From a virus: a stretch of DNA of 46,539 bases. The stretch is taken from positions 1-46,539 of the IMG/VR virus record IMGVR_UViG_3300032116_000359; one strand, given 5' to 3'. Of this stretch, positions 12,310-46,539 are shown piece after piece (the stretch's first letter is position 1; each line of letters starts with the position of its first letter). The notes below the pieces were generated by a model, which did not search any database, was not told the origin of the DNA, and saw nothing but the letters and a program-made list of their open reading frames with translations. Both the position numbers and the translations under genes were made by a program.

Positions 12310-15300
12310 TTAAATATCACAACCAAGTAAGTCTAACAAATCATTATTATTATCACTATTGTCCGTCTTCTTAGAATCTAACATTTCTTTTTCAATATCC
12401 TTTATTTTAGAAGCATTATTTTTAAAATCTTCTAAACTATCACGGGACTCTTTGATAGTCTCCTGGTCTGCTTTAGAAACTGTCACCTCTTCAGAAACTG
12501 GTTCCACCTTAACAATCTTCTTTTTCTCCACGGTAGTTAGATTTTTTCTAAGATTTTCGGCATCAATAGTTTCTACAACACCTTTTGGAGATCCCACCAT
12601 CTTTACATTGACGGTATTTTTCTTTGCATTAGTGCTTGTAACCCAACCCTTTCTGCCGTCAGTAAAGGTAACATAATCTCCTTTAACTAAATCAGTTGGG
12701 TTCATATTTCCAAGCATCTCATTACGACGTTGTTCCACTAATGCTAATACATCTCTAGAAGATATCTTACCGTCTGCAACAAGTTCTAATAGATTAGCTG
12801 TAGCTGTAGTGTTATCATTAAGTTTAGTGTTAGGCATCTCTCTTAATGAAGACACAGAGTCTAAAATAGATTTTGCTTTTTCTGTTCCAGATGTTTCTTC
12901 TACAACCACCTCAACAGGCTGAGCTTCTTCTAAACTAGCTAATTCTTCTTTTAATTCTTTAAGCTCTTGCTTATATAACTCAATATCCTTTTGAGATCGA
13001 ACAATAGCAGCATTACTATCTGTATTGTTCATAAAACGATAGGTAGTCTGAATTTGATCTTCAAGACGAGAAATGTTTTTCTGTATTTCTGCTTTACGAT
13101 CTATAGCAACAGGTTCAGCTTTTTCTAAAGTAAATAAATCATCTACACTTGCAAGAGCAGGTGGAGGAGTTATTTTACCTTCTTTTATAATAAAATCTGT
13201 AACTAGATTATAACGTTCTAAAACCTGATCTGCAAGTTGTTTATATTCTGCGTCTGTAATATCACGTTCACCAAGTACAGCTACTCTAGCACCCATTAAA
13301 TCTTTGCTTCCTAATATATTAATTTTTTTACCTCTATTTGAAATTGGTACATAAAGTATGTTATTAACAGGGACATAATTAATAAGAACAGCACCAGCTG
13401 CGTACTCCATTTTAACCCTAGGGTCTTTAGTTGTATGACCACTTTTTAAAGTTTCATTATCAATTTCTAGTATTAACTTCCATCCGTTAATAGCTTTTGT
13501 AGACTGATTAAATTCTTTAATGATTTTAAGAGCCTCCGCTTTATAGTTTGGTTGGTCTATTATATCTGTAATTTTTCTTTCAACGTCGTTTAATCCTTTA
13601 AGAAACGGAGTTATTTTAGCAAAAGATTCTTCTTTTGAAGAAGTAGAAAACTCTGGAATTACAAGTTCAATAGGACCAGTAGGTGTAGGGGTTGCAGTAG
13701 GCTCAGCAGGTTTAGCTCCTTCTAAAGCAGTTAGTTCTGCATCATATTTAGCATTAATCTGGTTAAAAAGATTAGCTTTTTCTGCTACCTCCCCATTTCT
13801 ATCAAAATTAAAATAAGGTTGTCTTTTTGCTACTGGATCATTCGGACTAGCATATCCACTATCTTTGTAATAACTTAATTGTTCCTTACTGAAGTTTTGA
13901 TCTAACTCTTCTTTTCTTCTTCTTTCTATATCAGCTCTAGCATCTGTAGAAACACTAACGGGTTTATACTCTGTTATATCTTCTTTCTTAATATCTTCTA
14001 GCATCTGTGGATAAGATGCAGCATGCCTATCTATTGTTTCATCAGATACATTTGCCCTGTTAACTCCTGCTGCAATATCCGCTTTTATTCTTTGTTTAGC
14101 CAATTCAACATTTAAAGGCATTAGCTTATACTGAATATTAGCACCAGGTATTGCTTTTTTAATAGCCTCTATAAATGGTCTTCTTTTTTCTTTAGTTAAA
14201 TTGGTGGTATCAAAGACTACCTGTTTACCATTCTTTACAGCTTCTATTGCTCTTTTAGCAGCTTCAATATAAATTTCCTTATCTTTAGATTTATCATTTA
14301 TATCTCCTGTAAACTCAATTCTCATGTCATCAGGAGAAATGATTACTAAATTTTCTTGAGGTAAACTTTTTATAAAAGTAGATTTTCCACTTCCAGAAGT
14401 TCCTATGGGTAAAATAACATTAGCTTTAGCACCATCTGTAGAAACAGGAGCTGTTGGTGTGGGAGCAGGTGTTGGAGTAGGTTCTGCTGGTTTAATAGCA
14501 GGAGCAGGTGTAACAGCAGCAGCACCCTTCTTCTGCTCAGCTTCATACTGAGCTTTAATATTAGCAGCCTTAGCTGATGTCTCTACATACTCATCATATG
14601 TAATATCAGCCTCAGGATTATTATCTATGTATTCATTATAAGCAGCCTCAAGTCTAGAAGCTAAATCTGCAGGTACTACTTCTTTCTTCTTAGCTTTTTT
14701 CTCCTCAGGTTTTTCTTCTTCAGGCTGAATCTGTTGCTCAGCTATTTTTTTCTTCTCTTCTTCATCCTGTTGAGCTTGTTCTTGAGCTTCTTGTTCAGCT
14801 AACTTATCCTGTCTAAGTTTAACAAATATCTCAATAGCATCTTTAGCCTTCTCCACTCTAGGATCTGTTTCACTCAAAGGTTCTCCGCTCACTAAATCTA
14901 AAAACTGTGTAGGAGAAGCTCCTTCAAAAACCATTGCTTGAAGTTCCTCATCTGTCAACTTTACTCCAAGTTGAGCAATATACTCTGTGAGCTTATTAAA
15001 TTCATTAATAGAAAGAAATTCATCAAAAGCATTAGCCATTAACTTTTCTCTCTGCTCATACATGTTTCTGTATGTCTCATTTATAATTGTAGCATGTCTA
15101 GCAAACATTTCAGGATTGGTCAGTCCATTTACATTCTGTAAATAATTCTGAGCATCCTTACCTAAACTATAAATGTCTAATATTTTTTTGAAAGAGTCAT
15201 CTATCTTACCTTCAAAAACATATGCATCATTGTTAATGTTAGCAATTGCTTTTAGGTATTCTTTATAAGCATCACGTAACGGTGCTATAGCTTCCTCATT

Positions 15301-18021
15301 AAAAGGAATTTCAAACTGTCCGTTTTCATTTACGTTAGTCTGACTCTTTAATCCAGCTTGATATCTCTCTAATGCATTAGAGTATTTAACTAAAGCTTCT
15401 AGCTTAGTTCTTTTTTTAGCAGCAAGTTCTTTTTGTTTAGGGTCATCAGACTGCTCTAACATTTTTATTTCATCACCAAGAATCTTGATCTCATTATTCA
15501 TAAGATCATTATTTTGTAATACTGTGATGTCTGTAGCAGAAGCAGATGCAACTGGTCTATTTGTAGACAAGTCTGACATCAAACCTTGTAATCTCTGTGT
15601 AGCTCTGTTAAATCCAAACTGTGAAGCAATGATTAACTTCTTAGCATCTTCATAAGCCTTATAAGCTAACACCTCATTTACATACTTGTCCCCGTTTGTC
15701 TTTTTATATTTCTTAGGGTTAAAAGGATTAGAGAATTGAGAATTTACTTTTCCATATACATCCTTAATCTCGTTAGCCCTAGTTATATATTCGTTTAGTT
15801 TATCTTTAGCTTTAGTACCATCTTGTAAGTTAAAGGCTGAGGCAAGCTCTACATCAGAAAGCTTACCCATATCTTCTAATGCATTAATAACTAAATCAAA
15901 GGTCTTAGTATCTAATGCTGTAAAAATGTGATCAAACGTTTTCTCATCTTTAGAGTCATAGAAAGTTTTATCATCATCATTTAACTCAGCCTCAGACATG
16001 TTTAAGTTTGCTCTGTACTGATTAACCACACTTTCTTTTCTACGTGAAAAGAACTTTTCAGGGTCAGCCATAATTCCATTTATTGCATTTATGGCATCTG
16101 TCTTTAAAGTGGCTTTCTGTTTAAGATATGCATCATATCTTTCTTTTCTAAACTTCTGGTTGTACATCCTACCTAATCCATTCACAGTACCAAAAATAGT
16201 ATTCTGTACAAGTTTTGTACCTCCTCCCATCAAGAAACCATTTAAGAAAATCTCAGCTCCTTGTGGAGACCAGATGTTTTCTTTAGCAGCACCCCACACC
16301 ATACTTCTTGCATAGTCTTCCCCACCTAATGCAGGGTTCTTATATACATTATTGTAGTAGTTTGCAATAGATGCTCCTGCAGTTTCTTGTAAACTTTCCT
16401 GTACACCTTCTGCAAAATTTGCTTTAGTGTAGTTAATAAAGTTTCCTAAGTATGCTTTTGGAGTTTTAATTAATCCTTTAGCTCTTGAAGCAAAACCTTG
16501 AACGGATTCTGAGAAAGTTCTGCTAGCAGCGTCATAAGATATTTGTTTAGCTACTGATTTTCTAGTTGCTTGTTCTGCAGCATCTAATGCATTATCTAAC
16601 GCTCTAAACTTAAACAGCCCATCAAATACCAATCTGTTAGAAAGATAAATGATAGGTACATTTACAAGAGTGTCTAGCTTACCTGCTTTTTCAGCATTCT
16701 GATAGATTGTAGCCCATCCGTTTTGATCAGGTAATTGACCATTATGAGTCTTCATATAGTAGTCAAGCTGCTCGTCAAGCACTTGATTGTACACTCCACC
16801 ACCTTCTAACTGAGCTTCACTAACAGCAAATAATCCTTCTCTTATATCTCTATAGAAGCTACCAAAAGCACTAGATGCTTTAGCAAAGTTACTTAAATTA
16901 GCATATGTACCTGTCCCTTGTCCAATCTCGGATAGAGTTTTTGTAGTTCCTCTAAAAGGATTTACAATATTAACTGCACCTTTTCCAAGAAGTAAACCTC
17001 CGGTTTTTACACCTGTATAAAATTTTCTAGCGTTGTTTATATCCTTAAAAGACTTAAGAATACCAAACCCACCCTTAAGTACTTGTGCACCACCACCAAG
17101 AGAGGTTTGTCTAAGACCAGCTTTAGCAACTTCTGTTGCTCTACGTAAAGCACTTAAACGTTCTCCAGCTCTTGCTATGTTTGTTCCAGTACGTGCAGCT
17201 GCTGCACCACCTGCACCACCACCTGTAGCAGTTGTTATTAAACCTAAAGCAAATTCTTCAGCTAAGACGTTTGCAACAATACCAATTGAATAAGCCATGT
17301 TTAGAGAAAAGTTAGATATTTTCCCCATGGCTGTTTCTTTTGAAGACATGCCAAGGCTCATGGCCTTTTCATACTGTTGAGCAGCTTCTCGATCAGGATC
17401 AAAAAGTCCTGATTCTCCTGTAAAGTAATTACTAATTGTTCTATAGTTACTTACAAAAGCTGATCCAAATAAACTTCCCCATTGACCAGTCATTCTTTTA
17501 AAATCCTGCCACCCAGTAGTGTTCTCATTAAATCTTTCTTCGTTATTTTCTAATGGGTTGAAACCAATCTTATTAAATGTACTTTGTCCATATCCTCTAT
17601 ATCTGTCTACATTACTAGTGTATTGATCAAATGTATAAGCTCCATAAGCAAGCATTGGATCTCTATAACTTTCAACTTTAGCGGGGGCAGTTTCACTAAA
17701 ATTTTTTAAACTTTGTCTTTGTTTATTTGACAAGTTTACAAGATCATTCATTGTCATTTTAGGCTTCTGTGCAGGGACAGGATCACCAGGTCCCCCACCT
17801 TGATTACTAATAGACGTTCCTGTATTATTTTCAGGAGTTTTTTTAATGTTGTCTACATTAAAACCAGCCAAATCTCCAAAAGGATCTTCAGCAGTGCTAA
17901 AGTCAAGCTCTGCACCATTTACTTGACTATTCTCAACTTCTGAAGCCACCATTTGATTAGCAGCTTCAAAGTCATTAGAAACAGTCTGATCGTTTAAACC
18001 AAATGTATTCTCTAAAGCCAT
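12310..18021 (-). CDS. giant ejection/internal virion protein with embedded P-loop polynucleotide-kinase-like domain (1903 aa)
   Basis: Not recognised as a whole. Residues about 235-276 are a hydrophobic, then Gly/Ala-rich stretch (LITTATGGGAGGAAAA) that could interact with a membrane. Residues about 600-1130 are long and helical, ending in a highly charged Glu/Lys/Gln run, then Pro/Thr linkers. At 1207-1215 is a perfect Walker A, GTSGSGKST, followed by SPDDMR, DTTNLTKEKR and a helical lid-like segment. This resembles the kinase domain of T4 polynucleotide kinase or other AAA_33/zeta-toxin P-loop kinases. Near the C-terminus (about residues 1770-1825) DLVKGDYVTFTDGRKGWV resembles an SH3/KOW-like barrel. 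The start ATG overlaps the upstream TAA (TAATG), implying translational coupling. It sits between other large virion-type proteins and the virion polymerase, so it is probably packaged. The kinase substrate (RNA/DNA end, nucleotide or UDP-sugar) is unknown. Confidence 0.75.
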   Translation of the reverse strand: MALENTFGLNDQTVSNDFEAANQMVASEVENSQVNGAELDFSTAEDPFGDLAGFNVDNIKKTPENNTGTSISNQGGGPGDPVPAQKPKMTMNDLVNLSNKQRQSLKNFSETAPAKVESYRDPMLAYGAYTFDQYTSNVDRYRGYGQSTFNKIGFNPLENNEERFNENTTGWQDFKRMTGQWGSLFGSAFVSNYRTISNYFTGESGLFDPDREAAQQYEKAMSLGMSSKETAMGKISNFSLNMAYSIGIVANVLAEEFALGLITTATGGGAGGAAAARTGTNIARAGERLSALRRATEVAKAGLRQTSLGGGAQVLKGGFGILKSFKDINNARKFYTGVKTGGLLLGKGAVNIVNPFRGTTKTLSEIGQGTGTYANLSNFAKASSAFGSFYRDIREGLFAVSEAQLEGGGVYNQVLDEQLDYYMKTHNGQLPDQNGWATIYQNAEKAGKLDTLVNVPIIYLSNRLVFDGLFKFRALDNALDAAEQATRKSVAKQISYDAASRTFSESVQGFASRAKGLIKTPKAYLGNFINYTKANFAEGVQESLQETAGASIANYYNNVYKNPALGGEDYARSMVWGAAKENIWSPQGAEIFLNGFLMGGGTKLVQNTIFGTVNGLGRMYNQKFRKERYDAYLKQKATLKTDAINAINGIMADPEKFFSRRKESVVNQYRANLNMSEAELNDDDKTFYDSKDEKTFDHIFTALDTKTFDLVINALEDMGKLSDVELASAFNLQDGTKAKDKLNEYITRANEIKDVYGKVNSQFSNPFNPKKYKKTNGDKYVNEVLAYKAYEDAKKLIIASQFGFNRATQRLQGLMSDLSTNRPVASASATDITVLQNNDLMNNEIKILGDEIKMLEQSDDPKQKELAAKKRTKLEALVKYSNALERYQAGLKSQTNVNENGQFEIPFNEEAIAPLRDAYKEYLKAIANINNDAYVFEGKIDDSFKKILDIYSLGKDAQNYLQNVNGLTNPEMFARHATIINETYRNMYEQREKLMANAFDEFLSINEFNKLTEYIAQLGVKLTDEELQAMVFEGASPTQFLDLVSGEPLSETDPRVEKAKDAIEIFVKLRQDKLAEQEAQEQAQQDEEEKKKIAEQQIQPEEEKPEEKKAKKKEVVPADLASRLEAAYNEYIDNNPEADITYDEYVETSAKAANIKAQYEAEQKKGAAAVTPAPAIKPAEPTPTPAPTPTAPVSTDGAKANVILPIGTSGSGKSTFIKSLPQENLVIISPDDMRIEFTGDINDKSKDKEIYIEAAKRAIEAVKNGKQVVFDTTNLTKEKRRPFIEAIKKAIPGANIQYKLMPLNVELAKQRIKADIAAGVNRANVSDETIDRHAASYPQMLEDIKKEDITEYKPVSVSTDARADIERRRKEELDQNFSKEQLSYYKDSGYASPNDPVAKRQPYFNFDRNGEVAEKANLFNQINAKYDAELTALEGAKPAEPTATPTPTGPIELVIPEFSTSSKEESFAKITPFLKGLNDVERKITDIIDQPNYKAEALKIIKEFNQSTKAINGWKLILEIDNETLKSGHTTKDPRVKMEYAAGAVLINYVPVNNILYVPISNRGKKINILGSKDLMGARVAVLGERDITDAEYKQLADQVLERYNLVTDFIIKEGKITPPPALASVDDLFTLEKAEPVAIDRKAEIQKNISRLEDQIQTTYRFMNNTDSNAAIVRSQKDIELYKQELKELKEELASLEEAQPVEVVVEETSGTEKAKSILDSVSSLREMPNTKLNDNTTATANLLELVADGKISSRDVLALVEQRRNEMLGNMNPTDLVKGDYVTFTDGRKGWVTSTNAKKNTVNVKMVGSPKGVVETIDAENLRKNLTTVEKKKIVKVEPVSEEVTVSKADQETIKESRDSLEDFKNNASKIKDIEKEMLDSKKTDNSDNNNDLLDLLGCDI

Positions 18022-37789: not shown

Positions 37790-37810
37790 CTTAAACTTTA
37801 ATAGTTTAAG
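37790..37810. repeat. 8-bp inverted repeat overlapping the metallophosphoesterase stop
   Basis: CTTAAACT (37790-37797) and AGTTTAAG (37803-37810) are exact reverse complements with a 5-base loop. The minus-strand copy contains TTAAAGTTTAA, also found in the palindrome at 21514. It covers the stop codon of the upstream gene and precedes a gap with no further gene. No U-tract follows, so it does not look like a rho-independent terminator; an operator or RNA-processing element is possible. Confidence 0.5.
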
Positions 37811-39017
37811 CAGTATAGATAAGTTCAGAAATCTTACCCTTTTCAAAGTCATGAAGTTCCATAATAGCCTGACGCTTAGACCCTACAAATTTGTTATGGT
37901 AGTGCCAATAGTCAGATTTGGAAAGACTAGGAAGATGTTTCAAAGAGAACCCGTTAAACTCATTTTCACTGATGTATTCAGTGGTCTTCTTAGAATGGAA
38001 GTGTCCTGTATAACAAGTTCTATAAATAGTTGATCCCCACTCTTTTGCAAACTCTGTAGCATAAACAAGAGGGGTATTCTTTTTAGTTACATCCCCGTGC
38101 TCAAAACCAAAGAAGTTATTACCACAAGTAATTACTTTTCTTTCAGAATACTCTACATCAAATATTACTCTTTCGTCCTTTATAGACTTAGAGATAGCAT
38201 GAGCCAAATGGTAGGAGCTTAGTCTATCGTGGTTACCTGGAAGATATATAACATGTAATTCCTGGGTAAATTGAGCTAAGTAGTTAACAGCCCAGTAGAT
38301 GGATTCAAAAGCATCCTTATATGCTTCTTGGGCTCTCATACTATTATCTACAGGAGTTCCACTGGTAGTTGTACCATTAAAGGTATCCATGTTTAAGATA
38401 TCACCACCAAAAACAAATACAATCTTAGACAAACAGTTGGAAGCATATGCTCTATGTACAAGATTAGTTACAGCACTTCTAAAGTCTTGTACCACTGTAT
38501 CATTATCCTCCTTACCAAAATGAAGATCTTGTACAGATAAAATAGCCACTACATCATTAATAAACTTGTCATTAATAATAGGTAGTGGCAAAGGCTGTGT
38601 AAGAGGATTGAAGTTCTTTATAACTTCAGCTAGAGCATTATCAGGAGTATCTTTAATCTGGGTAACCATGGCTGAAACAAGCCAACGGTCATTCTGCTGT
38701 TTATTCCAATAAGAAGATAGTCTCCATTTCTTTGTATCTATCTTAAGGATTTTAATAATGTCTTCAGGACCACAGGGTTCTGATGTAGATATACCCACAA
38801 TCTCAGCTGTACCCTTGTCTAAGTTTTCACTAAACTTGACTACAGAATCGTTAAATTTAGGAGGTGGATTTAGATAGAAATAAGAAGGATCAGGAGAATT
38901 TAAAATTTCTTGTTTTAATTCTCTGTACTTTTCTATAGGAATTCCTAACTTTGCAGAACAATATTCATCAGACTTTTTCCATCTGAGTGTCCCATATACC
39001 CTGTTAATTAGACTCAT
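37806..39017 (-). CDS. calcineurin-like metallophosphoesterase (403 aa)
   Basis: The full metallophosphoesterase motif set is present: D164-L-H166 (DLHFGK), GGD206ILN209, GN262H263D264, H307GD and GH339FH341. These residues form the two-metal site that hydrolyses phosphodiesters or phosphomonoesters. The N-terminal 155 residues form a separate helical/beta module with no match I can name (LGIPIEKYRELKQEIL, then RWLVSAMV). Many phages encode such enzymes, sometimes SbcD-like, for DNA end processing or cyclic-nucleotide cleavage; the substrate here is unknown. It is the first gene after a rho-independent terminator, preceded by about 80 bases of AT-rich DNA, so it probably starts a new transcription unit that continues into the neck and tail genes. 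The catalytic class is secure; the biological role is open. Confidence 0.85.
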   Translation of the reverse strand: MSLINRVYGTLRWKKSDEYCSAKLGIPIEKYRELKQEILNSPDPSYFYLNPPPKFNDSVVKFSENLDKGTAEIVGISTSEPCGPEDIIKILKIDTKKWRLSSYWNKQQNDRWLVSAMVTQIKDTPDNALAEVIKNFNPLTQPLPLPIINDKFINDVVAILSVQDLHFGKEDNDTVVQDFRSAVTNLVHRAYASNCLSKIVFVFGGDILNMDTFNGTTTSGTPVDNSMRAQEAYKDAFESIYWAVNYLAQFTQELHVIYLPGNHDRLSSYHLAHAISKSIKDERVIFDVEYSERKVITCGNNFFGFEHGDVTKKNTPLVYATEFAKEWGSTIYRTCYTGHFHSKKTTEYISENEFNGFSLKHLPSLSKSDYWHYHNKFVGSKRQAIMELHDFEKGKISELIYTA

Positions 39018-39096: not shown

Positions 39097-39132
39097 AAAA
39101 AATAGAGCCCCAACGTGGAAACGTCAGGGCTT
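39097..39132 (-). terminator. rho-independent terminator closing the fibre/glycosyltransferase operon
   Basis: On the minus strand AGCCCTGACGT and ACGTTGGGGCT pair as an 11-bp stem (two G-U pairs) around a 4-base loop, TTCC, followed by CTATTTTTTAA. The stem occupies 39107-39132 and the U-run about 39097-39103. It lies 35 bases after the stop of the glycosyltransferase-methyltransferase gene and before the metallophosphoesterase gene. It is the strongest terminator visible in the window. Confidence 0.85.
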
Positions 39133-39166: not shown

Positions 39167-40483
39167 TTATTTTACAGCTATATCAAAAAAGTTACCTCTA
39201 TTTTGAATATTAGCTACATCTATTTTTTTATATAATAAAAAAGGAATAATATCTTTAAAATATTTATCCTTGTCTATTCTCCAACCAGGATGGAATGATA
39301 TATACATTGGTATATTTAAATCCCAAAGTATAGAATGTTCTTTCAACAAGTCTTGTTCATGTCCTTCTATATCAATCTTTATAACAGATATGTCTTCTTG
39401 TTTAAGACTGTATTTTTCTAAAATTTGTTTAACTGTTAAACAGTCAACTGTAATTGCATTATCTATACAAGAATCTCTAGTTATACTCTCACCAAGAACT
39501 CCCGATCCAAGTGTTATTTGACTTTTTGAAGAGACAGCTTTATTTTCTAAACAAATATTCTTAAACTCATTTAACTGTACATTACGAGAAAGTTCTTTAA
39601 ATGCTACAGGATCTGGTTCAAAACAGATACATTGTTTAGAGTATTGACAAGCAACTAGTGATATTGGGCCAATCCAAGTTCCTATATCAATAAATGTTTT
39701 TTCTTTACTTAATCTTGGAACTATAAAATCAAATGTTGAATTTTCCCAACCTGAATAATGATCATCCCAAAACTTAGAATTTAAAGAAGTTTTTATTACA
39801 TCAAAACTCACTCCACTTTTATTCATCTTTTTTATATCATCCATATATAACTTCTTTATTTTATCTCCCCAGGTTGAAAATGAAACAGCTTCTTTTAAGT
39901 AGTACCTCCACTCATCTGTTAAACTATTTTCATCTAAATACCATGGAACATGTTTTATTGTGTAAGGTTCATCCAATCTAAGAGCACTATAAGAAAAACC
40001 AGATTTGGCTTTATATAATGCAAATGTTGTATCTACATCAGCATCCCAACCATACTTAGTTTTATTTACCCAATATTTAGACTCATGTAGTCTTGCTTGT
40101 TTACCTATTTTACTATCTGGTAAATTATCAATTCTTAAAGAAAAACCAACTTTATTTTTACCAGATTTATCTAATGCTTCAAGCATTTTATCTAACCAAT
40201 CAGAAGGAACTCCATCATATATACAATCTGAATCTGCTACTATAAAGGGTTCACTTCCTTTAATCTTATTGTATCTACCGTTCCAGCATGAATTAGGTCC
40301 TTCGTTTTTAGAATAAAATATATTACAAGGATTTGTTTTATAATATTCTAACAAAGGTGGGTAGGTTGATTCTTGATCAAGTACCCATATTTCAACTCTA
40401 TCTTCTTTTTTTAAAAACTCTATTGTGTTTTTTAAAGTGGTTAGAAGATTTCTATTTACGATTAGAGCTTTTATTTTTTCCAT
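39167..40483 (-). CDS. bifunctional glycosyltransferase (GT-A like) + FkbM-type methyltransferase (438 aa)
   Basis: The N-terminal half starts KIKALIVNRNLLTTLKNTIEFL and carries D84-S-D86 (IVADSDCIYDG), the metal/nucleotide-sugar DxD signature of GT-A glycosyltransferases. The C-terminal half is an FkbM-type SAM-dependent methyltransferase: FIDIGTWIG (264-272, SAM-binding loop), CFEPDP (287-292) and IKIDIEGHE (368-376). FkbM-family enzymes methylate sugar or polyketide hydroxyls, so the fusion suggests a sugar is added and then capped by O-methylation. The preferred start is ATG 40483 (a TTG nine bases upstream is also in frame). It overlaps the preceding glycosyltransferase by 32 bases and is the last gene before the terminator. 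The acceptor is unknown; the nearby Thr-rich fibre proteins are the obvious candidates. Confidence 0.85.
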   Translation of the reverse strand: MEKIKALIVNRNLLTTLKNTIEFLKKEDRVEIWVLDQESTYPPLLEYYKTNPCNIFYSKNEGPNSCWNGRYNKIKGSEPFIVADSDCIYDGVPSDWLDKMLEALDKSGKNKVGFSLRIDNLPDSKIGKQARLHESKYWVNKTKYGWDADVDTTFALYKAKSGFSYSALRLDEPYTIKHVPWYLDENSLTDEWRYYLKEAVSFSTWGDKIKKLYMDDIKKMNKSGVSFDVIKTSLNSKFWDDHYSGWENSTFDFIVPRLSKEKTFIDIGTWIGPISLVACQYSKQCICFEPDPVAFKELSRNVQLNEFKNICLENKAVSSKSQITLGSGVLGESITRDSCIDNAITVDCLTVKQILEKYSLKQEDISVIKIDIEGHEQDLLKEHSILWDLNIPMYISFHPGWRIDKDKYFKDIIPFLLYKKIDVANIQNRGNFFDIAVK

Positions 40484-41228
40484 TAAAATCAATTAACTGT
40501 TGTTTATAATCGACTTTCCACTTTGGTTTAAGCTCTATGCGTCCTGTTGGAATTTTACCATTTTTTCTTAAAGACTCTATATGTTCACTATGTCTCACTA
40601 TAACATTTGGTCTTTTATTATCATCTGTTCCTTGTCCACTCATATGATAAGATCTTCCTCCCCACATATAAAACCAACTTACTTCATCATCGGAAGGAGC
40701 AGCAAATACAACATTTTGTGAGTTGTGTCTAATACTCATAACAAATGTCATATCATAACCAGCATTTTCTAAAGGGTGCCCACCAAGCTTTTTCCATATT
40801 CTTTTACTATAAACAATTCCAGAATTACCTAATCCTGTAATTGAAGTAATTTCCTTATTGTTAAAAAATACACCCCTATGCCAATGAAGAAGATCTGTAT
40901 CTTCTTTAAAGTATTTTGCAATATTACTCAAATGATTAGGTAAAGCAACATCATCGTCATCCCAAACAGCAATTATATCACCAGAACATTTACTAATTGC
41001 AAAGTTTTCTTTTTCTCCAATTGTAGAAAAAGTTTCTTTTAGATTATAGATTTTTACATCTGGATGATCAAATACAAGTTCCTGAAGAGGATAATCATTT
41101 ACAATAATTAATTCTTTTTTTCCAGGATAGTCTTGATTAATAAAAGAGTATAAACTTTCTTCAAGCGTATCTACACGCCCATATGTTATACATTTTGCAG
41201 ATATCAAAGGATAACTTATCTCAGACAT
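40452..41228 (-). CDS. family 2-type glycosyltransferase (258 aa)
   Basis: GT-A fold signature: ISAKCITYGRVDTLEESLYSFI at the start, ELIIVND (40-45), and VWDDDDVALPNHL with the DxD around residues 90-93. Later GYDMTFVMSI and DDEVSWFYMWGG fit the acceptor side of GT2 enzymes. There is no membrane segment, so it is a soluble transferase acting in the infected cell. It overlaps the preceding gene by 13 bases and the next by 32. The start ATG (41226-41228) is preceded by AAGGAGGT, an unusually good Shine-Dalgarno for this genome, and by ATTAAAAACCAA. It ends in TAG, showing that TAG is a stop here. It belongs to a three-gene glycosylation cassette; donor and acceptor are unknown. Confidence 0.88.
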   Translation of the reverse strand: MSEISYPLISAKCITYGRVDTLEESLYSFINQDYPGKKELIIVNDYPLQELVFDHPDVKIYNLKETFSTIGEKENFAISKCSGDIIAVWDDDDVALPNHLSNIAKYFKEDTDLLHWHRGVFFNNKEITSITGLGNSGIVYSKRIWKKLGGHPLENAGYDMTFVMSIRHNSQNVVFAAPSDDEVSWFYMWGGRSYHMSGQGTDDNKRPNVIVRHSEHIESLRKNGKIPTGRIELKPKWKVDYKQQLIDFNGKNKSSNRK

Positions 41229-42136
41229 GTTACCTCCTTGGTTTTTAATATTTCTTCTGCATATTTAATAGAACACTTATCTGTCTTAAAGTCTTCTAAC
41301 TTAATATCATAAGGAAGTGCTTGCTGATATTGTCCTTTAAAAAACATACCCTGATTTCCATCTACTACACCAGCATTATGATAGATTAAATGTTTATCCC
41401 ATTCATTGACATGGGAGGTAGCCCAAGCAAATGATAACTTAGTAGACACCTTTACAATTTTGTCAAAGAACCAAAGATTCCATAAAACAGCCCACATATC
41501 TGCACACCAAATTTGTATTGGGTGTTCTGGTTTATCTTCTCTAATTTGATGATTCACTATTCTATAAAGACTTTCAGCATCATAGTAAGCTTTTTTCCAA
41601 AGCTCAGTGGGAACATTTTTTAAAAGATACTGTGCTCCACCACTATCTGCTTGATTTAATCTTATGAATTTTTTATTTACGTTTACTATTCTTGACATAA
41701 GATCAAGATAGTGTTCTCCTTTTGAAGCAATATATTCAGCTCCAATGTAAGAAACTGTGTCACTTACGTAGCAGATCTCGTCATTTAAAAAAACATCAAA
41801 ATCTACAGATTTTGTAAATACAATATCACAGTCATGATAAAAGATGGTTTCTTTTTCCATCTCAGGATACTTTAACCAATGCTGATAAAGAAGGTCTAAT
41901 CTTACACTAGATATATATGAAGGTTTTACACGTTTATCATTATAAAAATGAAACTGTACATTATTATAATGAGCGGCTAACCTTTTCCACTTTTCAGGAA
42001 TAAAGTCATTATTAATTGCTCCTAATATAATAATATCATTAGGATTGACTCCGTTTTTGATAAAGTTATTAATCATTACCTCTACCTGCCAGGTATAATA
42101 ATCTATTGTAGCAGGTTGTGCACAAATAAACTTCAT
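41216..42136 (-). CDS. putative glycosyltransferase with DxD motif (306 aa)
   Basis: The N-terminus KFICAQPATIDYYTWQVEVMI and the motif YHD102CD104IVF resemble GT-A enzymes that act on peptide hydroxyls or hydroxyproline (HPAT/SERGT-like), but this family link is from memory and weak. Later motifs include QADSGGAQYLLK, WCADMWAVLWNLWFF and HNAGVV, typical of the acceptor-binding half of retaining and GT8-like transferases. No membrane anchor or signal peptide is visible. The start is preceded by ATTAAAAACCAA four bases away, a leader shared with two neighbouring genes. It is the first of three overlapping glycosyltransferase genes and directly follows the Thr-rich 96-aa protein. Confidence 0.72.
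   Translation of the reverse strand: MKFICAQPATIDYYTWQVEVMINNFIKNGVNPNDIIILGAINNDFIPEKWKRLAAHYNNVQFHFYNDKRVKPSYISSVRLDLLYQHWLKYPEMEKETIFYHDCDIVFTKSVDFDVFLNDEICYVSDTVSYIGAEYIASKGEHYLDLMSRIVNVNKKFIRLNQADSGGAQYLLKNVPTELWKKAYYDAESLYRIVNHQIREDKPEHPIQIWCADMWAVLWNLWFFDKIVKVSTKLSFAWATSHVNEWDKHLIYHNAGVVDGNQGMFFKGQYQQALPYDIKLEDFKTDKCSIKYAEEILKTKEVTCLR
41238..41249 (-). promoter_or_regulatory. shared leader motif ATTAAAAACCAA before the GT2 gene
   Basis: On the minus strand ATTAAAAACCAA lies 9 bases before the ATG at 41228, within the 3' end of the upstream coding region. Here it is followed directly by GGAGGT. The same 12-mer precedes the 306-aa and 51-aa genes. Confidence 0.5.
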
Positions 42137-42140
42137 TATG

Positions 42141-42152
42141 TTGGTTTTTAAT
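42141..42152 (-). promoter_or_regulatory. shared leader motif ATTAAAAACCAA before the first glycosyltransferase
   Basis: On the minus strand ATTAAAAACCAA ends 4 bases before the ATG at 42136, in the 28-base gap after the 96-aa gene. It is one of three copies; with one extra 5' A it matches the copy at 45341 over 13 bases. There is no Shine-Dalgarno here, so it may be a Bacteroidota-type A-rich initiation element. Confidence 0.5.
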
Positions 42153-42164
42153 TAAAAGCTATTT

Positions 42165-42455
42165 TTAAGGGAGAGTAGTAGTTGTTGTTGTACTACTAGT
42201 CGTAGTAGTAGTTGTTGTTGTACATTGAGGAAGTTGAGCAATTAAAATTTCAATAATCTCTGTCACTGACATACCTGCTATAATACCGTAGCATGCTAAA
42301 TCTGATCCTGTATAAATTACACAATCAGATTGATAAGCAGCATCACAAGGTTCTGCTCCTTCACAGGTGGTAGTAGTTGTTGTAGTACTGGTTGTTATTG
42401 TCTCAGGACAACAGCAAGGTAAACCATACATATAATTATTGCAGCAACAAGACAT
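42165..42455 (-). CDS. small Cys/Thr-rich surface-type protein (96 aa)
   Basis: Starts MSCCCNNYMYGLPCCCPE, then a Thr tract (residues 20-30), a Cys module SDCVIYTGSDLACYGIIAG (43-61) continuing through VTEIIEILIAQLP, and a second Thr tract (79-94) at the very C-terminus. The Cys module is the same as in the next two upstream genes, so this is a short paralogue. It ends in a bare Thr tail, which could be an O-glycosylation target or could be joined to other subunits. It is immediately followed by three glycosyltransferase genes. There is no signal peptide, as expected for an intracellularly assembled virion protein. Exact role unknown. Confidence 0.7.
   Translation of the reverse strand: MSCCCNNYMYGLPCCCPETITTSTTTTTTTCEGAEPCDAAYQSDCVIYTGSDLACYGIIAGMSVTEIIEILIAQLPQCTTTTTTTTSSTTTTTTLP
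42168..42221 (-). repeat. ACN (Thr) codon tract, 96-aa protein C-terminus
   Basis: About 16 Thr/Ser codons in a row (residues 79-94), using a mix of ACT, ACA and ACG rather than one repeated triplet. Similar tracts lie at 43330-43419, 43618-43695 and 43943-44005. Confidence 0.7.
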
Positions 42456-42468
42456 TTTTATAATTTTT

Positions 42469-43929
42469 TTAAAGTCCGCAAGTAGTTGTATTATTTAAAG
42501 TTACATTACCAGAAGTAACTGTATATCCTGTACCGTCAGTACAAATTGTAATAGTTGTTAAGAAACTTACAGTGGTATAAGATCCTCCACATTGAAAGTA
42601 TTCAATAGATGCAAGGCTACCGTCTGTTTGCAACGTATATTCTACACAAGGTGTAGTACACATTGCTTCATTAGCAGATGATGCATTTGTTAAAACTAGT
42701 GAGCCAACAACAATACATCCTGTATCTATGGTAACTCCTTGAGCTACGATACCAGCAATAGGTTCAGCAGTTCCACCACATAATTGTGCTGACCAAGAAC
42801 CACCACCTGTTCCTCCTGTTACATCATATGTTGCACATTCAGCAGGAGCAGAAGTGGTACTAGTAGTTGTTGTAGAAGTTGTTGTTATACAATCACTTGC
42901 ACATAGTTCAGAAGAAACATTTGCTACAGAAAGACCTGTAGCAAGTACAGTTCCCTGTATTGCACAAATATAAAGTGGTAAAGAAACTTCAGGCGTATTT
43001 ACAGTAACTACTCCCTCACCATAGCAGTTTGTATAAGAAAGATAGTTTGTAGCTGATCCCACCCAACCAATTTGATAACAGACACAAGGAGGTTCTGTAG
43101 TGGTAGTACTAGTTGTAGTTGTTCCACAGAAACCTTCATCGATAATTGTTAAGCCTGGAACAGGAATAATAGAAACTGAATTCTGACATGCACAAACTGC
43201 TGTACTTTGACCATTTAATAACGTAATAGGAATAACCGTTCCCGTTACACATTGACGATATGTTCCACTTACAGATCCTCCACTAAGATTAAAGATCTCA
43301 TAGTCTCTACAATTAGAACAAGGATTAACTGTAGTGGTAGTGGTAGTTGTACTAGTGGTTGTAGTACTGGTAGTACTAGTAGTACTAGTGCTAGTAGTTG
43401 TAGAAGTAGTTGTTGTAGTATTACAACCAGTTCCTCCTTGAAATACAATTATAGATTTGCTGTTATAATAAATCTCATTGTTGCAAACACAAATTGTAAT
43501 TTGAGAATTTGCTGGTACAGGAACACCCGATTGAAAAACTCTATTGCAGTTATTATAACCTATATACTGAATATAACCTGTAATATTTTGTACAACATAT
43601 GTATAGCAAACACAAGGAGCTAGTGTCGTAGTTGTAGTGGTAGTAGGAGGTGCAGTAGTTGTTGTACTTGTGGTACTGGTTGTAGTAGTTGTAGTGCAAT
43701 TTTCACCAAAATAAGCTACTACTAAATCATGTAACACCTCACAAAGCTTATCTCCTTTAGTTACTGGTAAACAAGGATTTGTTTCTCCAGAATATAAAAC
43801 ACAGCAAGCGTCAATCTTTTCCTCACAAGGATCTACAGGTTGACATGTAGTAAGCCCTGTAACTCCCGGAGGGGTACAAAACATGCAAGGATCACAAGTC
43901 CTAGAAGCTGTATTACAGTTACAAGACAT
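42469..43929 (-). CDS. modular Cys-domain protein with Thr-rich linkers, probable virion fibre/decoration (486 aa)
   Basis: Plan: Cys-rich start (MSCNCNTASRTCDPC), the shared Cys module CCVLYSGETNPCLPVTKGD (42-60), then five beta-type Cys domains of about 60 residues at roughly 106-169, 204-269, 282-345, 365-424 and 428-486. They follow a pattern of C-x-x-Y near the start, Y-x-x-C-x-G in the middle, ICxC or similar, and a final Gly-x-Cys. Thr-rich linkers separate most of them (78-102, 170-200, 271-278, 349-360). The organisation resembles mucin-like, glycosylated adhesins. No membrane anchor or signal peptide is present, so it probably assembles on the phage particle. It lies 10 bases after the 408-aa gene and just before the 96-aa paralogue and the glycosyltransferases. 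The existence is secure; the virion role and glycosylation are inference. Confidence 0.72.
   Translation of the reverse strand: MSCNCNTASRTCDPCMFCTPPGVTGLTTCQPVDPCEEKIDACCVLYSGETNPCLPVTKGDKLCEVLHDLVVAYFGENCTTTTTTSTTSTTTTAPPTTTTTTTLAPCVCYTYVVQNITGYIQYIGYNNCNRVFQSGVPVPANSQITICVCNNEIYYNSKSIIVFQGGTGCNTTTTTSTTTSTSTTSTTSTTTTSTTTTTTTVNPCSNCRDYEIFNLSGGSVSGTYRQCVTGTVIPITLLNGQSTAVCACQNSVSIIPVPGLTIIDEGFCGTTTTSTTTTEPPCVCYQIGWVGSATNYLSYTNCYGEGVVTVNTPEVSLPLYICAIQGTVLATGLSVANVSSELCASDCITTTSTTTTSTTSAPAECATYDVTGGTGGGSWSAQLCGGTAEPIAGIVAQGVTIDTGCIVVGSLVLTNASSANEAMCTTPCVEYTLQTDGSLASIEYFQCGGSYTTVSFLTTITICTDGTGYTVTSGNVTLNNTTTCGL
43330..43419 (-). repeat. longest Thr/Ser codon tract (about 30 codons)
   Basis: Encodes residues 171-200 of the 486-aa protein, only Thr with some Ser. 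Codons are mixed ACT, ACA, ACC and AGT, so the protein feature rather than a perfect microsatellite appears conserved. Confidence 0.7.
43618..43695 (-). repeat. Thr-rich tract before the first Cys domain
   Basis: Encodes residues 79-104 of the 486-aa protein, Thr/Ser with an internal APP. Same mixed ACN codon use as the other tracts. Confidence 0.65.
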
Positions 43930-43939
43930 TAACTATTGA

Positions 43940-45166
43940 TTAAGGAGGTGTAGTAGTTGTACTGGTAGTGGTGCTAGTAGTTGTCGTAGTAGTTGTGGTA
44001 GTTGGAGCAGCTAACCCACCTGTAGCAGTATTTTGACAAGTGTAACCATCTTTTGTAATACAACCATCTACTGTAATACTATAAGCTGTTGATGTATCAA
44101 ATCCAGCTGTACTAATATCAAATGTAATTCCAGAAGGATCAGTTGCTTCGGTTACAAGATCAAACGTGTTAGAATAAATATGTCCAGCACCATCTGTAAT
44201 TGTTACAGTAGAAAGTAAAGGGCAGTTGCTAAATCCAGAAGGAATAGTTGTAAGAGCATTAAATGTTAATGTAATTAACTGTCTTGTAGGATCTTGTGCT
44301 GCATTAAATCCTAAGATAAACTGAGTACAATCTACAGCACAACAATTCTTTAATTGCTCTACAGCATCTCTAATATCACAAACTGTAATCCAAAGATTTT
44401 GAATAGACTGTCCAAGATTACTTACCGTATTATTCCATCCTGGAAGAGAGGACATTGTACCTGCTGTACTTAAAGAAGCATCTGCTCCTGTAATACATTG
44501 TCTAGCCTGAGCAATTGTTAAATCTGATACAGTACCTAATGCACTGATATAACTACACAATGCATTAGCCACATCTTCTACAACAGTTTGAATATCCTGC
44601 ACAGAACCTGATAAACAACTGTATACAGAAAGTGCAGGAGTTGTTGCATTTTCTAATGCTGTAATTCTAGCTTCATGATTAGCTAATTCAGCAGTGTGAT
44701 CTGTAACAATAGAATTAATTTGACAAAGAACAAAAGCAGCTCTTTGTGCATATTCACTAAGAGAAAGTTCTGTAATAAACCCACCTACGCCATCTGGTAC
44801 ATATAAACACTCTGGTAAAGTAAGAATAGGTTCTGTATAACAACATCCGTCTGGAGTTGGATTATTATTTATAAGGTCAGATAAACAGCACACCTTATCT
44901 ACAAGAAGTTGTAAAATATTAGCTAAAGTAATCTGTGGTTCTGGAGTAGTTTCACATACTGTAAGCAAACATTGAATGTCTACATCAGATAATCCTAGGT
45001 CTGTTTTAAAATTACAAATTTCAACGGCAACCTTGTATACTACATCAGATACGCTATCACCTTTGCAGAGGTGTAAACACGGTAAATCTGGTCCCTGCCA
45101 AACCACACAGTTTGACGAAATAGGAACACAGTTTTCACTGTTACTGCTAGATCTAACAGGATTCAT
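43940..45166 (-). CDS. fibre-like protein with coiled coil, Cys module and Thr-rich tail (408 aa)
   Basis: The N-terminus carries the shared module NCVVWQGPDLPCLHLCKGDS (19-38). A long helical middle includes HTAELANHEARITALENA, a typical trimeric fibre coiled coil, and repeated CxI/DxQ helices with many Cys. From about residue 280 comes a beta-sandwich-like, Ig/FN3-type domain (LITLTFNALTTIPSGFSNC... AYSITVDGC), then a Thr tail (388-406) ending PP. The layout of anchor module, stalk, beta domain and Thr tail fits a tail or head fibre. It starts 12 bases after a 51-aa gene and is followed by the modular 486-aa protein. The Thr tail may be glycosylated by the enzymes downstream. Family not named; fibre role is inferred. 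Confidence 0.7.
   Translation of the reverse strand: MNPVRSSSNSENCVPISSNCVVWQGPDLPCLHLCKGDSVSDVVYKVAVEICNFKTDLGLSDVDIQCLLTVCETTPEPQITLANILQLLVDKVCCLSDLINNNPTPDGCCYTEPILTLPECLYVPDGVGGFITELSLSEYAQRAAFVLCQINSIVTDHTAELANHEARITALENATTPALSVYSCLSGSVQDIQTVVEDVANALCSYISALGTVSDLTIAQARQCITGADASLSTAGTMSSLPGWNNTVSNLGQSIQNLWITVCDIRDAVEQLKNCCAVDCTQFILGFNAAQDPTRQLITLTFNALTTIPSGFSNCPLLSTVTITDGAGHIYSNTFDLVTEATDPSGITFDISTAGFDTSTAYSITVDGCITKDGYTCQNTATGGLAAPTTTTTTTTTSTTTSTTTTPP
43943..44005 (-). repeat. Thr-rich C-terminal tract of the fibre-like protein
   Basis: Encodes residues 388-408 of the 408-aa protein, nearly all Thr/Ser, ending in PP. Fourth large ACN tract within 2 kb. Confidence 0.65.
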
Positions 45167-45726: not shown

Positions 45727-46287
45727 TTAGAATTTTACGATTTTAGAAATATGATTTAATAAATTATCAATAGGCTGAGCATACATAAACTTGTAACCTC
45801 TAACATTATATTTACCATTTGATTTACAAGATTTTTGTACTTCTTTTTGTCCAGCATTAATAGCTTTTTCTGCATCACGAATTGTATCATATTTTGCGAG
45901 CATATCCATATTATCTCTGCTAAACATATATACAGGCTTCACCTTCCCTATTAATCTTTGATAATCACTTATCTTTTTATTAAACTCCTTAGTTCTTTTT
46001 ATTCCTTTAGCACTTCTTCCTTCTCTACACATATTGCAACACATAGGATTATCAATATGCTTAAATAAAAGTTCTGATTCTATTTTATTTAATTCTTCTT
46101 TTTTACATTCAATAACAATTTCATAAACAGGATCACCATATTTTTTGTAGCAATTTTGCATCCTACTATTTGTATGAAGTCCTTTCTTTAATTCTCTTTT
46201 ATGTTGAGAAAAACGTCTATTTATATTAATGGCTTGACCATAATAATAATGACCGTTTGAAAATGTTATTTTATATATCCCTATCAT
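45727..46287 (-). CDS. GIY-YIG homing endonuclease with NUMOD1 DNA-binding module (186 aa)
   Basis: The N-terminus MIGIYKITFSNGHYYYGQA contains the GIY (3-5) and YYG (15-17) pair of the GIY-YIG nuclease fold. Downstream candidates for the catalytic residues are R24, H29 and a Glu near 70-72. Residues about 118-170 (KPVYMFSRDNMDMLAKYDTIRDAEKAI and NVRGYKFMYA) match a NUMOD1-type helix-turn DNA-binding module. Such enzymes cut phage genomes that lack them and spread by repair. The start is placed at ATG 46287 because it forms a four-base ATGA overlap with the fibre stop; a start 12 bases upstream is also in frame. Its free-standing position right after a tail-fibre gene, a common target for gene conversion, fits a selfish insertion. 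Confidence 0.88.
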   Translation of the reverse strand: MIGIYKITFSNGHYYYGQAININRRFSQHKRELKKGLHTNSRMQNCYKKYGDPVYEIVIECKKEELNKIESELLFKHIDNPMCCNMCREGRSAKGIKRTKEFNKKISDYQRLIGKVKPVYMFSRDNMDMLAKYDTIRDAEKAINAGQKEVQKSCKSNGKYNVRGYKFMYAQPIDNLLNHISKIVKF

Positions 46288-46539
46288 AATTGAACCCATC
46301 CTGTTGAGGTGTAAATATACAAACCTTCAGTCGCATCCGTTTGATATACAATCAAACCAACCGCAGGGGAAGTTATGGCGGTGCGTTGTGCTTGAGTTTG
46401 TCTCGGAGGTAGGAAACCTTTTGTGGTGCTTGAAATGTTTACTATTGCACTTGCATCGTTAGTTGATGTCCCTATCAAAACATTTCCATCAAATCCACGA
46501 ATACGCATATTCTCAGCAAGTGTATTCGTTGCATTCTTT
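46284..46539 (-). CDS. tail fibre protein, C-terminal part (partial, runs off window end)
   Basis: The frame is open to the window edge (KNATNTLAENMRIRGFDGNVL...), so the true start lies outside. The visible C-terminus contains NVLIGTSTNDASAIVNISST, TKGFLPPRQTQAQRTAI, GLIVYQTDATEGLYIYTS and GWVQL. This is the end of a repetitive beta-helical fibre or host-recognition protein, of a kind common in Bacteroidota phages and prophages. It ends with TGA, overlapping the next gene's ATG. Only about 85 residues are visible, so length and full domain content cannot be judged. Confidence 0.75.
   Translation of the reverse strand, partial: KNATNTLAENMRIRGFDGNVLIGTSTNDASAIVNISSTTKGFLPPRQTQAQRTAITSPAVGLIVYQTDATEGLYIYTSTGWVQL

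Follow-up and report, generated by a model that had tools for sequence, protein, structure and literature searches.

What do the glycosyltransferases encoded near the right end of a 46.5-kb viral fragment act on? The fragment (IMG/VR record IMGVR_UViG_3300032116_000359, positions 1 to 46,539, hereafter the window) contains genes for three adjacent cysteine-rich proteins with long threonine/serine (Thr/Ser) tracts, followed on the same strand by three transferase genes. A preliminary description of this DNA suggested that the phage O-glycosylates its own Thr tracts. Our comparisons support this suggestion: the first transferase, a protein of 306 amino acids (aa), and poly-Thr tags on proteins encoded nearby are present or absent together, from which we infer that the tracts are the acceptor. 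The cassette is very probably a module for virion self-glycosylation in which poly-Thr serves as the acceptor tag; in Bacteroidota phages variable transferases would extend this system. Computational evidence comes from the genes themselves, the fold of the enzyme, its linkage to the tracts, the joint presence and absence of both, and the matching of tags within single phages.

The 306-aa protein matches the phrog_4417 profile over its full length (residues 1-300, E 3.8e-73), and each of six related viral records that were tested contains a single match to this profile. Neither Pfam nor NCBIfam gave a family match for the protein. In an alignment of 24 homologues D102 and D104 of its HDCD motif are invariant, together with several Trp, Gly and His positions. 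The AlphaFold2 model (mean predicted local distance difference test score, pLDDT, 96) shows a GT-A/GT8-like fold. Foldseek aligned this model with the catalytic domain of UGGT, glycogenin, XXYLT1 and LARGE1 (E ~1e-6 to 1e-5) and, in a viral library, with an uncultured Caudovirales protein (TM-score 0.94) and Orf49 of Lactobacillus phage LP65 (TM-score 0.76). The former, GT8/GT24 enzymes, have the overall GT-A fold and the metal-binding DxD in common with the 306-aa enzyme but are unlike it in sequence, a search of PDB sequences with the enzyme profile giving no match, and their TM-scores are just ~0.4-0.5. The model predicts the GT-A fold with confidence, and the protein is a putative GT8-like nucleotide-sugar glycosyltransferase. 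It is a clear member of phrog_4417, a family annotated as being of 'unknown function' that also contains bIL285 Orf45, phiFL1A gp51 and, by structure, LP65 Orf49. Among the sources available the link between this family, previously without an assigned function, and poly-Thr tags is new; searches of the open-licence literature uncovered no report that connects Thr tags with a phage glycosyltransferase.

We collected relatives of the 306-aa enzyme, irrespective of Thr content, from Bacteroidota-type viruses, Bacillota prophages and isolates; enzyme-positive laboratory phages include bIL285 and 1706, both of Lactococcus, and Chryseobacterium phage MA9V-3. Clustering at 85% identity left 109 non-redundant loci (70 viral, 31 prophage and 8 isolate clusters). 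The gene at position -1 relative to the enzyme encodes a Thr/Ser run of at least 8 residues in 52 of 69 viral loci and of at least 6 residues in 26 of 31 prophage loci; such runs are rare in the genes downstream. On viral contigs the Thr-tract gene typically ends ~10-80 bases 5′ of the enzyme start, on the same strand. In a control set of random viral DNA, a run of at least 8 residues was found in 1 of 648 genes and the enzyme in none of 63 loci. In a reverse scan, viral loci were selected for eight ACN codons (T8): of 55 with a T8 open reading frame (ORF), 7 contained the enzyme gene, in 6 of them adjacent to that ORF, versus 0 of 25 loci without one.

The preliminary description had asked whether Thr-rich proteins and transferases are gained and lost together in related phages. 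For the 306-aa enzyme the answer is yes in several phage groups that are independent of one another. We drew orthologues of the tagged capsid and tail proteins from genomes chosen by taxonomy; they carry the tail in 9 of 9 cases with the enzyme nearby and in 0 of 39 without it (Fisher 6e-10), the untagged relatives that lack the enzyme being the informative part of this comparison. The same agreement between enzyme and tag was observed for four further protein families, and in 38 whole genomes the enzyme was detected in 5/5 tailed versus 0/33 untailed cases. Three tailed proteins appeared to be enzyme-free only through short fetched flanks: two came from phages already known to be enzyme-positive, and for the third (G687) the tailed capsid predicted an enzyme that a whole-genome search then located ~2 kb from the capsid gene, 6 genes away. 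Natural knock-outs were found as well. G058 lacks both the enzyme and all three tags of the syntenic L217, and G591 lacks the enzyme and both tags of the syntenic L245, its capsid protein being 84% identical. Tree contrasts on supported branches were concordant in 10 of 10 cases (2 + 1 + 3 + 2 + 1 + 1).

In Bacillota phages the partner of the enzyme is a major tail or capsid protein with a poly-Thr tail, and often both are tagged. The gene 5′ of the enzyme in prophages usually encodes a tail protein of ~210 aa, a similar tail is present on the product of the capsid gene six genes upstream, and in some prophages a protein of ~105 aa is tagged as well; in those Bacillota prophages that were examined, the genes that come next after the enzyme encode tail or connector proteins and no further transferases. 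Isolates with poly-Thr C-termini include phiFL1A (major tail protein), Lactococcus phage 1706 (capsid and major structural protein), bIL285 (tail protein, ending in ...KTTTTTTTTTRHD), iLp84 and 4995_1 (capsid proteins), and others. In 19 of 25 non-redundant phages the capsid tag and the tail tag end in the same two residues, with 4.1 expected (shuffling, p ~1e-4). Such matching is what one would expect of a single enzyme that reads every tag in its phage. Recent copying of DNA between capsid and tail genes is unsupported as its source, since most of the matching ends use different synonymous codons.

The cassette in the window consists of the following features:
43940-45166, minus strand: ORF of a 408-aa Cys-rich, putative virion-type protein with a helical region, a C-terminal beta-sandwich and a C-terminal tract
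43949-44002, minus strand: 18-residue C-terminal Thr/Ser tract of the 408-aa protein
42469-43929, minus strand: ORF of a 486-aa Cys-rich protein with five Thr/Ser runs between small domains
43654-43695, 43624-43644, 43330-43419, 43096-43122 and 42850-42885: runs of the 486-aa protein, of 14, 7, 30, 9 and 12 residues, respectively
42165-42455, minus strand: ORF of a 96-aa Cys-rich protein with Thr/Ser runs at 42366-42395 and 42174-42221
41216-42136, minus strand: 306-aa core glycosyltransferase, phrog_4417, with predicted GT-A/GT8-like fold (ORF, profile, AlphaFold2)
40452-41228, minus strand: 258-aa GT2-family glycosyltransferase with a WDDDD motif (Pfam PF00535, E 1.1e-14)
39167-40492, minus strand: fusion of a GT2-like domain (DSD) with an FkbM methyltransferase, 441 aa from TTG or 438 aa from ATG
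39106-39131, minus strand: terminator-like hairpin just past the last transferase stop, an 11-pair stem followed by a T-rich run (consensus match only)

All six ORFs of the preliminary description were thus recovered on the minus strand where it had placed them, with their HDCD, WDDDD and DSD motifs, and the terminator it put after the transferases corresponds to the hairpin listed last. The transferase genes overlap by 13 nt (306/258) and 41 nt (258/441), and the fusion protein is matched by PF05050 (E 2e-9), PF00535 (E 4e-5) and TIGR01444 (E 9e-22). Long Thr/Ser tracts do occur in the three Cys-rich proteins, as had been described, but their number is eight (runs of 7-30 residues) rather than four. 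The longest run has 30 residues, whereas 2000 composition-preserving shuffles gave none above 11, and Thr is encoded by a mixture of codons (ACT 48, ACA 33, ACC 15, ACG 3). This rules out expansion of a simple DNA microsatellite and points to selection acting on the protein. The 96-, 408- and 486-aa proteins have an N-terminal motif C-V-x-Y/W-x-G...C...G in common (alignment); gene order and homologues suggest that all three are virion-type proteins. In the AlphaFold2 model of the 408-aa protein, residues 280-390 have pLDDT >90 and the Thr tract forms a disordered tail, with a low overall predicted TM-score (pTM 0.37); a fold search with this overall poor model gave weak fibre/FnIII-like matches only, and no PHROG or NCBIfam match was found for the protein. 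The structural proteins of the window are distant kin of those of Cellulophaga phages phi4:1/phi17:2, csAssE-Sib and a Leptolyngbya phage.

Relatives of the window itself were fetched via the neighbouring nuclease gene (37806-39017), not via the enzyme. The enzyme-positive ones (n = 14) contain 6-340 residues in Thr/Ser runs (mean 158), versus 0-12 (mean 2) in those without the enzyme (n = 66). In the latter the position of the 408-aa gene is occupied by an orthologue whose product lacks the Thr tail, and the proteins encoded next are FnIII-like and untagged. With an initial, loose tract definition 16 enzyme-negative relatives were flagged, almost all of them for a single 8-residue stretch of ATSTTTTP type in one orthologue.

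We propose that the 306-aa enzyme most likely starts the glycan: using a nucleotide sugar as donor, it would attach the first sugar residue to hydroxyl groups of Thr (and Ser) within the poly-Thr tracts, which belong to proteins encoded immediately upstream. These tracts would act as a low-complexity acceptor tag. In Bacillota phages this tag is a short tail at the C-terminus of major capsid and tail-tube proteins; in phages of Bacteroidota, including that of the window, it takes the form of internal linkers and C-termini of Cys-rich appendage proteins. In the window the GT2 enzyme and the GT2-FkbM fusion would then probably lengthen and methylate the glycan, which would leave particle appendages with a mucin-like coat. 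Inferred here are the chemistry, the identity of the sugar, the sequence in which the enzymes act and incorporation of the products into virions, and a benefit might lie in shielding, adsorption, or evasion of proteases or bacterial defence.

The 98 genes found immediately 3′ of the core enzyme in the viral loci include 21 GT2, 10 Gly_transf_sug and 8 GT6 genes, several methyltransferases (FkbM 5, Methyltransf_24 5), 4 radical SAM/SPASM genes, and single GT29, GT25, GT34 and other genes. The simplest model is that a conserved initiating enzyme is combined with extenders of fast turnover, so that glycans vary in Bacteroidota-type phages; on this model the window has one such extender set, its GT2 and GT2-FkbM genes. 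The preliminary description had pictured a dedicated set of three transferases. Linkage to the tag holds for the core enzyme; the second and third enzymes are variable accessories, and the set is less general than envisaged. Capping of the glycan by methylation is no more than plausible; in some loci methyltransferase domains, FkbM among them, are again encoded downstream.

Several observations weigh against self-glycosylation of Thr tracts. First, 48 of the 55 T8 loci (within L092-L171) lack this enzyme and have the T8 gene among ordinary structural genes. Neighbours of T8 genes without phrog_4417 are mostly structural genes and are not enriched in other glycosyltransferases, which rules out a general rule that any Thr tract adjoins a glycosyltransferase. 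Thr tracts also exist for other reasons, and the implication therefore runs mainly from enzyme to tract. Second, 7 of the 70 viral clusters have no nearby Thr run (some lie at contig ends, one has a broken enzyme, some represent other contexts), and nearby runs are also absent in two bacterial contigs, L214 and L221. Third, the queries for the capsid/tail comparison came from tagged exemplars, which inflates its tagged side. Finally, the window is a fragment with no cultivated relative this close, and mycobacteriophage Che8, whose virion glycans are known, has neither this enzyme nor Thr tails on its capsid and tail proteins.

The Thr tail could instead be a docking handle or flexible spacer, not the main acceptor, with the enzyme glycosylating virion proteins at other residues. 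A tail that recruits the enzyme would give identical linkage and joint loss, and the end residues shared by the tags of one phage resemble a recognition motif. However, runs composed of hydroxyl residues only, up to 30 in the window, are poor specific docking motifs and good mucin-type acceptors, and in Bacteroidota phages they lie within the proteins, recur and differ in number; we consider a docking or spacer role unlikely.

Phages are known to carry enzymes that modify host glycans, as in serotype conversion, and the transferases of the window might similarly modify host surface glycans (for example, against superinfection), the Thr-rich proteins being ordinary fibre linkers. The T8 loci that have Thr tracts without the enzyme fit this possibility. 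Yet it gives no reason to expect poly-Thr tails to be missing from capsid and tail-tube orthologues where the enzyme is absent, and the enzyme gene sits within structural operons. A search for the serotype-conversion (gtr) partners gave no Pfam match to a GtrA flippase or GtrB among ten right-end proteins of the window, which also counts against a role on host glycans, and we regard it as very improbable. Glycosylation or hypermodification of phage DNA, a role known for other phage glycosyltransferases (PMC12619734), is hardly credible here, because the enzyme is linked to Thr-tagged virion proteins and loss of the tail with absence of the enzyme is not predicted; PHROG scans of the main ORFs of the window, itself a fragment, revealed no base-hypermodification gene.

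Virion self-glycosylation by phrog_4417 enzymes appears to work like that of mycobacteriophages without belonging to it by enzyme family. Glycosylation of phage-particle proteins is known experimentally mainly from mycobacteriophages. Their glycosyltransferases (Che8 gp110, Corndog gp38; Freeman et al. 2023) glycosylate capsid and tail-tube subunits, reportedly at C-termini, according to PMC12363180, PMC12619734 and PMC11256854, which cite that study; the first two describe virion glycans that shield particles from antibodies. In the Bacillota relatives, the Thr tags were found in sequence at the C-termini of capsid and tail-tube subunits. The Che8 glycosyltransferases 108-110 gave no match to the phrog_4417 profile, so that no homology with the window enzyme was found by this means, and they are encoded far from structural genes, unlike the linked GT8-like enzyme and poly-Thr tag of Bacillota and Bacteroidota phages. 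Mucin-type and bacterial serine-rich-repeat O-glycosylation combine a low-complexity Ser/Thr acceptor, an initiating enzyme and variable extenders, often encoded together. Acceptors in those systems are secreted adhesins or mucins, whereas here they would be cytoplasmic phage assembly proteins (enzyme homology was compared by Pfam only).

More broadly, phrog_4417 is likely to represent a widespread mobile 'tag plus enzyme' system, in which a poly-Thr tag can be placed on any surface protein (capsid, tail tube, small proteins, fibres) and is matched to the enzyme of each phage, and which in Bacteroidota has given rise to mucin-like fibres and diversifying glycan assembly lines. If so, phages of gut, dairy, soil and aquatic bacteria from two phyla use a separate enzyme family and an acceptor tag recognisable by eye. 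A family of 'unknown function' would gain a testable role, and glycosylated virions would become predictable from sequence. Natural matched pairs, with tag and enzyme or with neither, would then be available for gauging the effects of glycans on adsorption, stability, antibody recognition and bacterial defence.

Some homologues of the enzyme occur in other settings. In L016 (3586-4545) the enzyme gene is apparently split into ORFs of 173 and 114 aa on a 9.3-kb fragment without a Thr tract, possibly a decaying copy. L214, a contig of a delta-proteobacterial metagenome-assembled genome (MAG), has a phrog_4417 homologue after an ORF of 948 aa with (PDAPAPESSQ)n repeats at its start; a different Ser/Pro repeat may thus be the substrate of this relative, in a cellular setting. 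L221, a Dysgonomonas MAG contig, encodes a 483-aa homologue away from visible phage genes, and the next gene is lanthionine-cyclase-like (by eye).

Elsewhere in the window, a 1903-aa ORF (12310-18021) contains a polynucleotide-kinase-like P-loop region (phrog_505) at about residues 1200-1350, next to a 3116-aa ORF that has no PHROG match. A GIY-YIG endonuclease ORF (45727-46299), located between a tail-fibre-like C-terminus and a 91-aa gene, resembles a mobile insertion.

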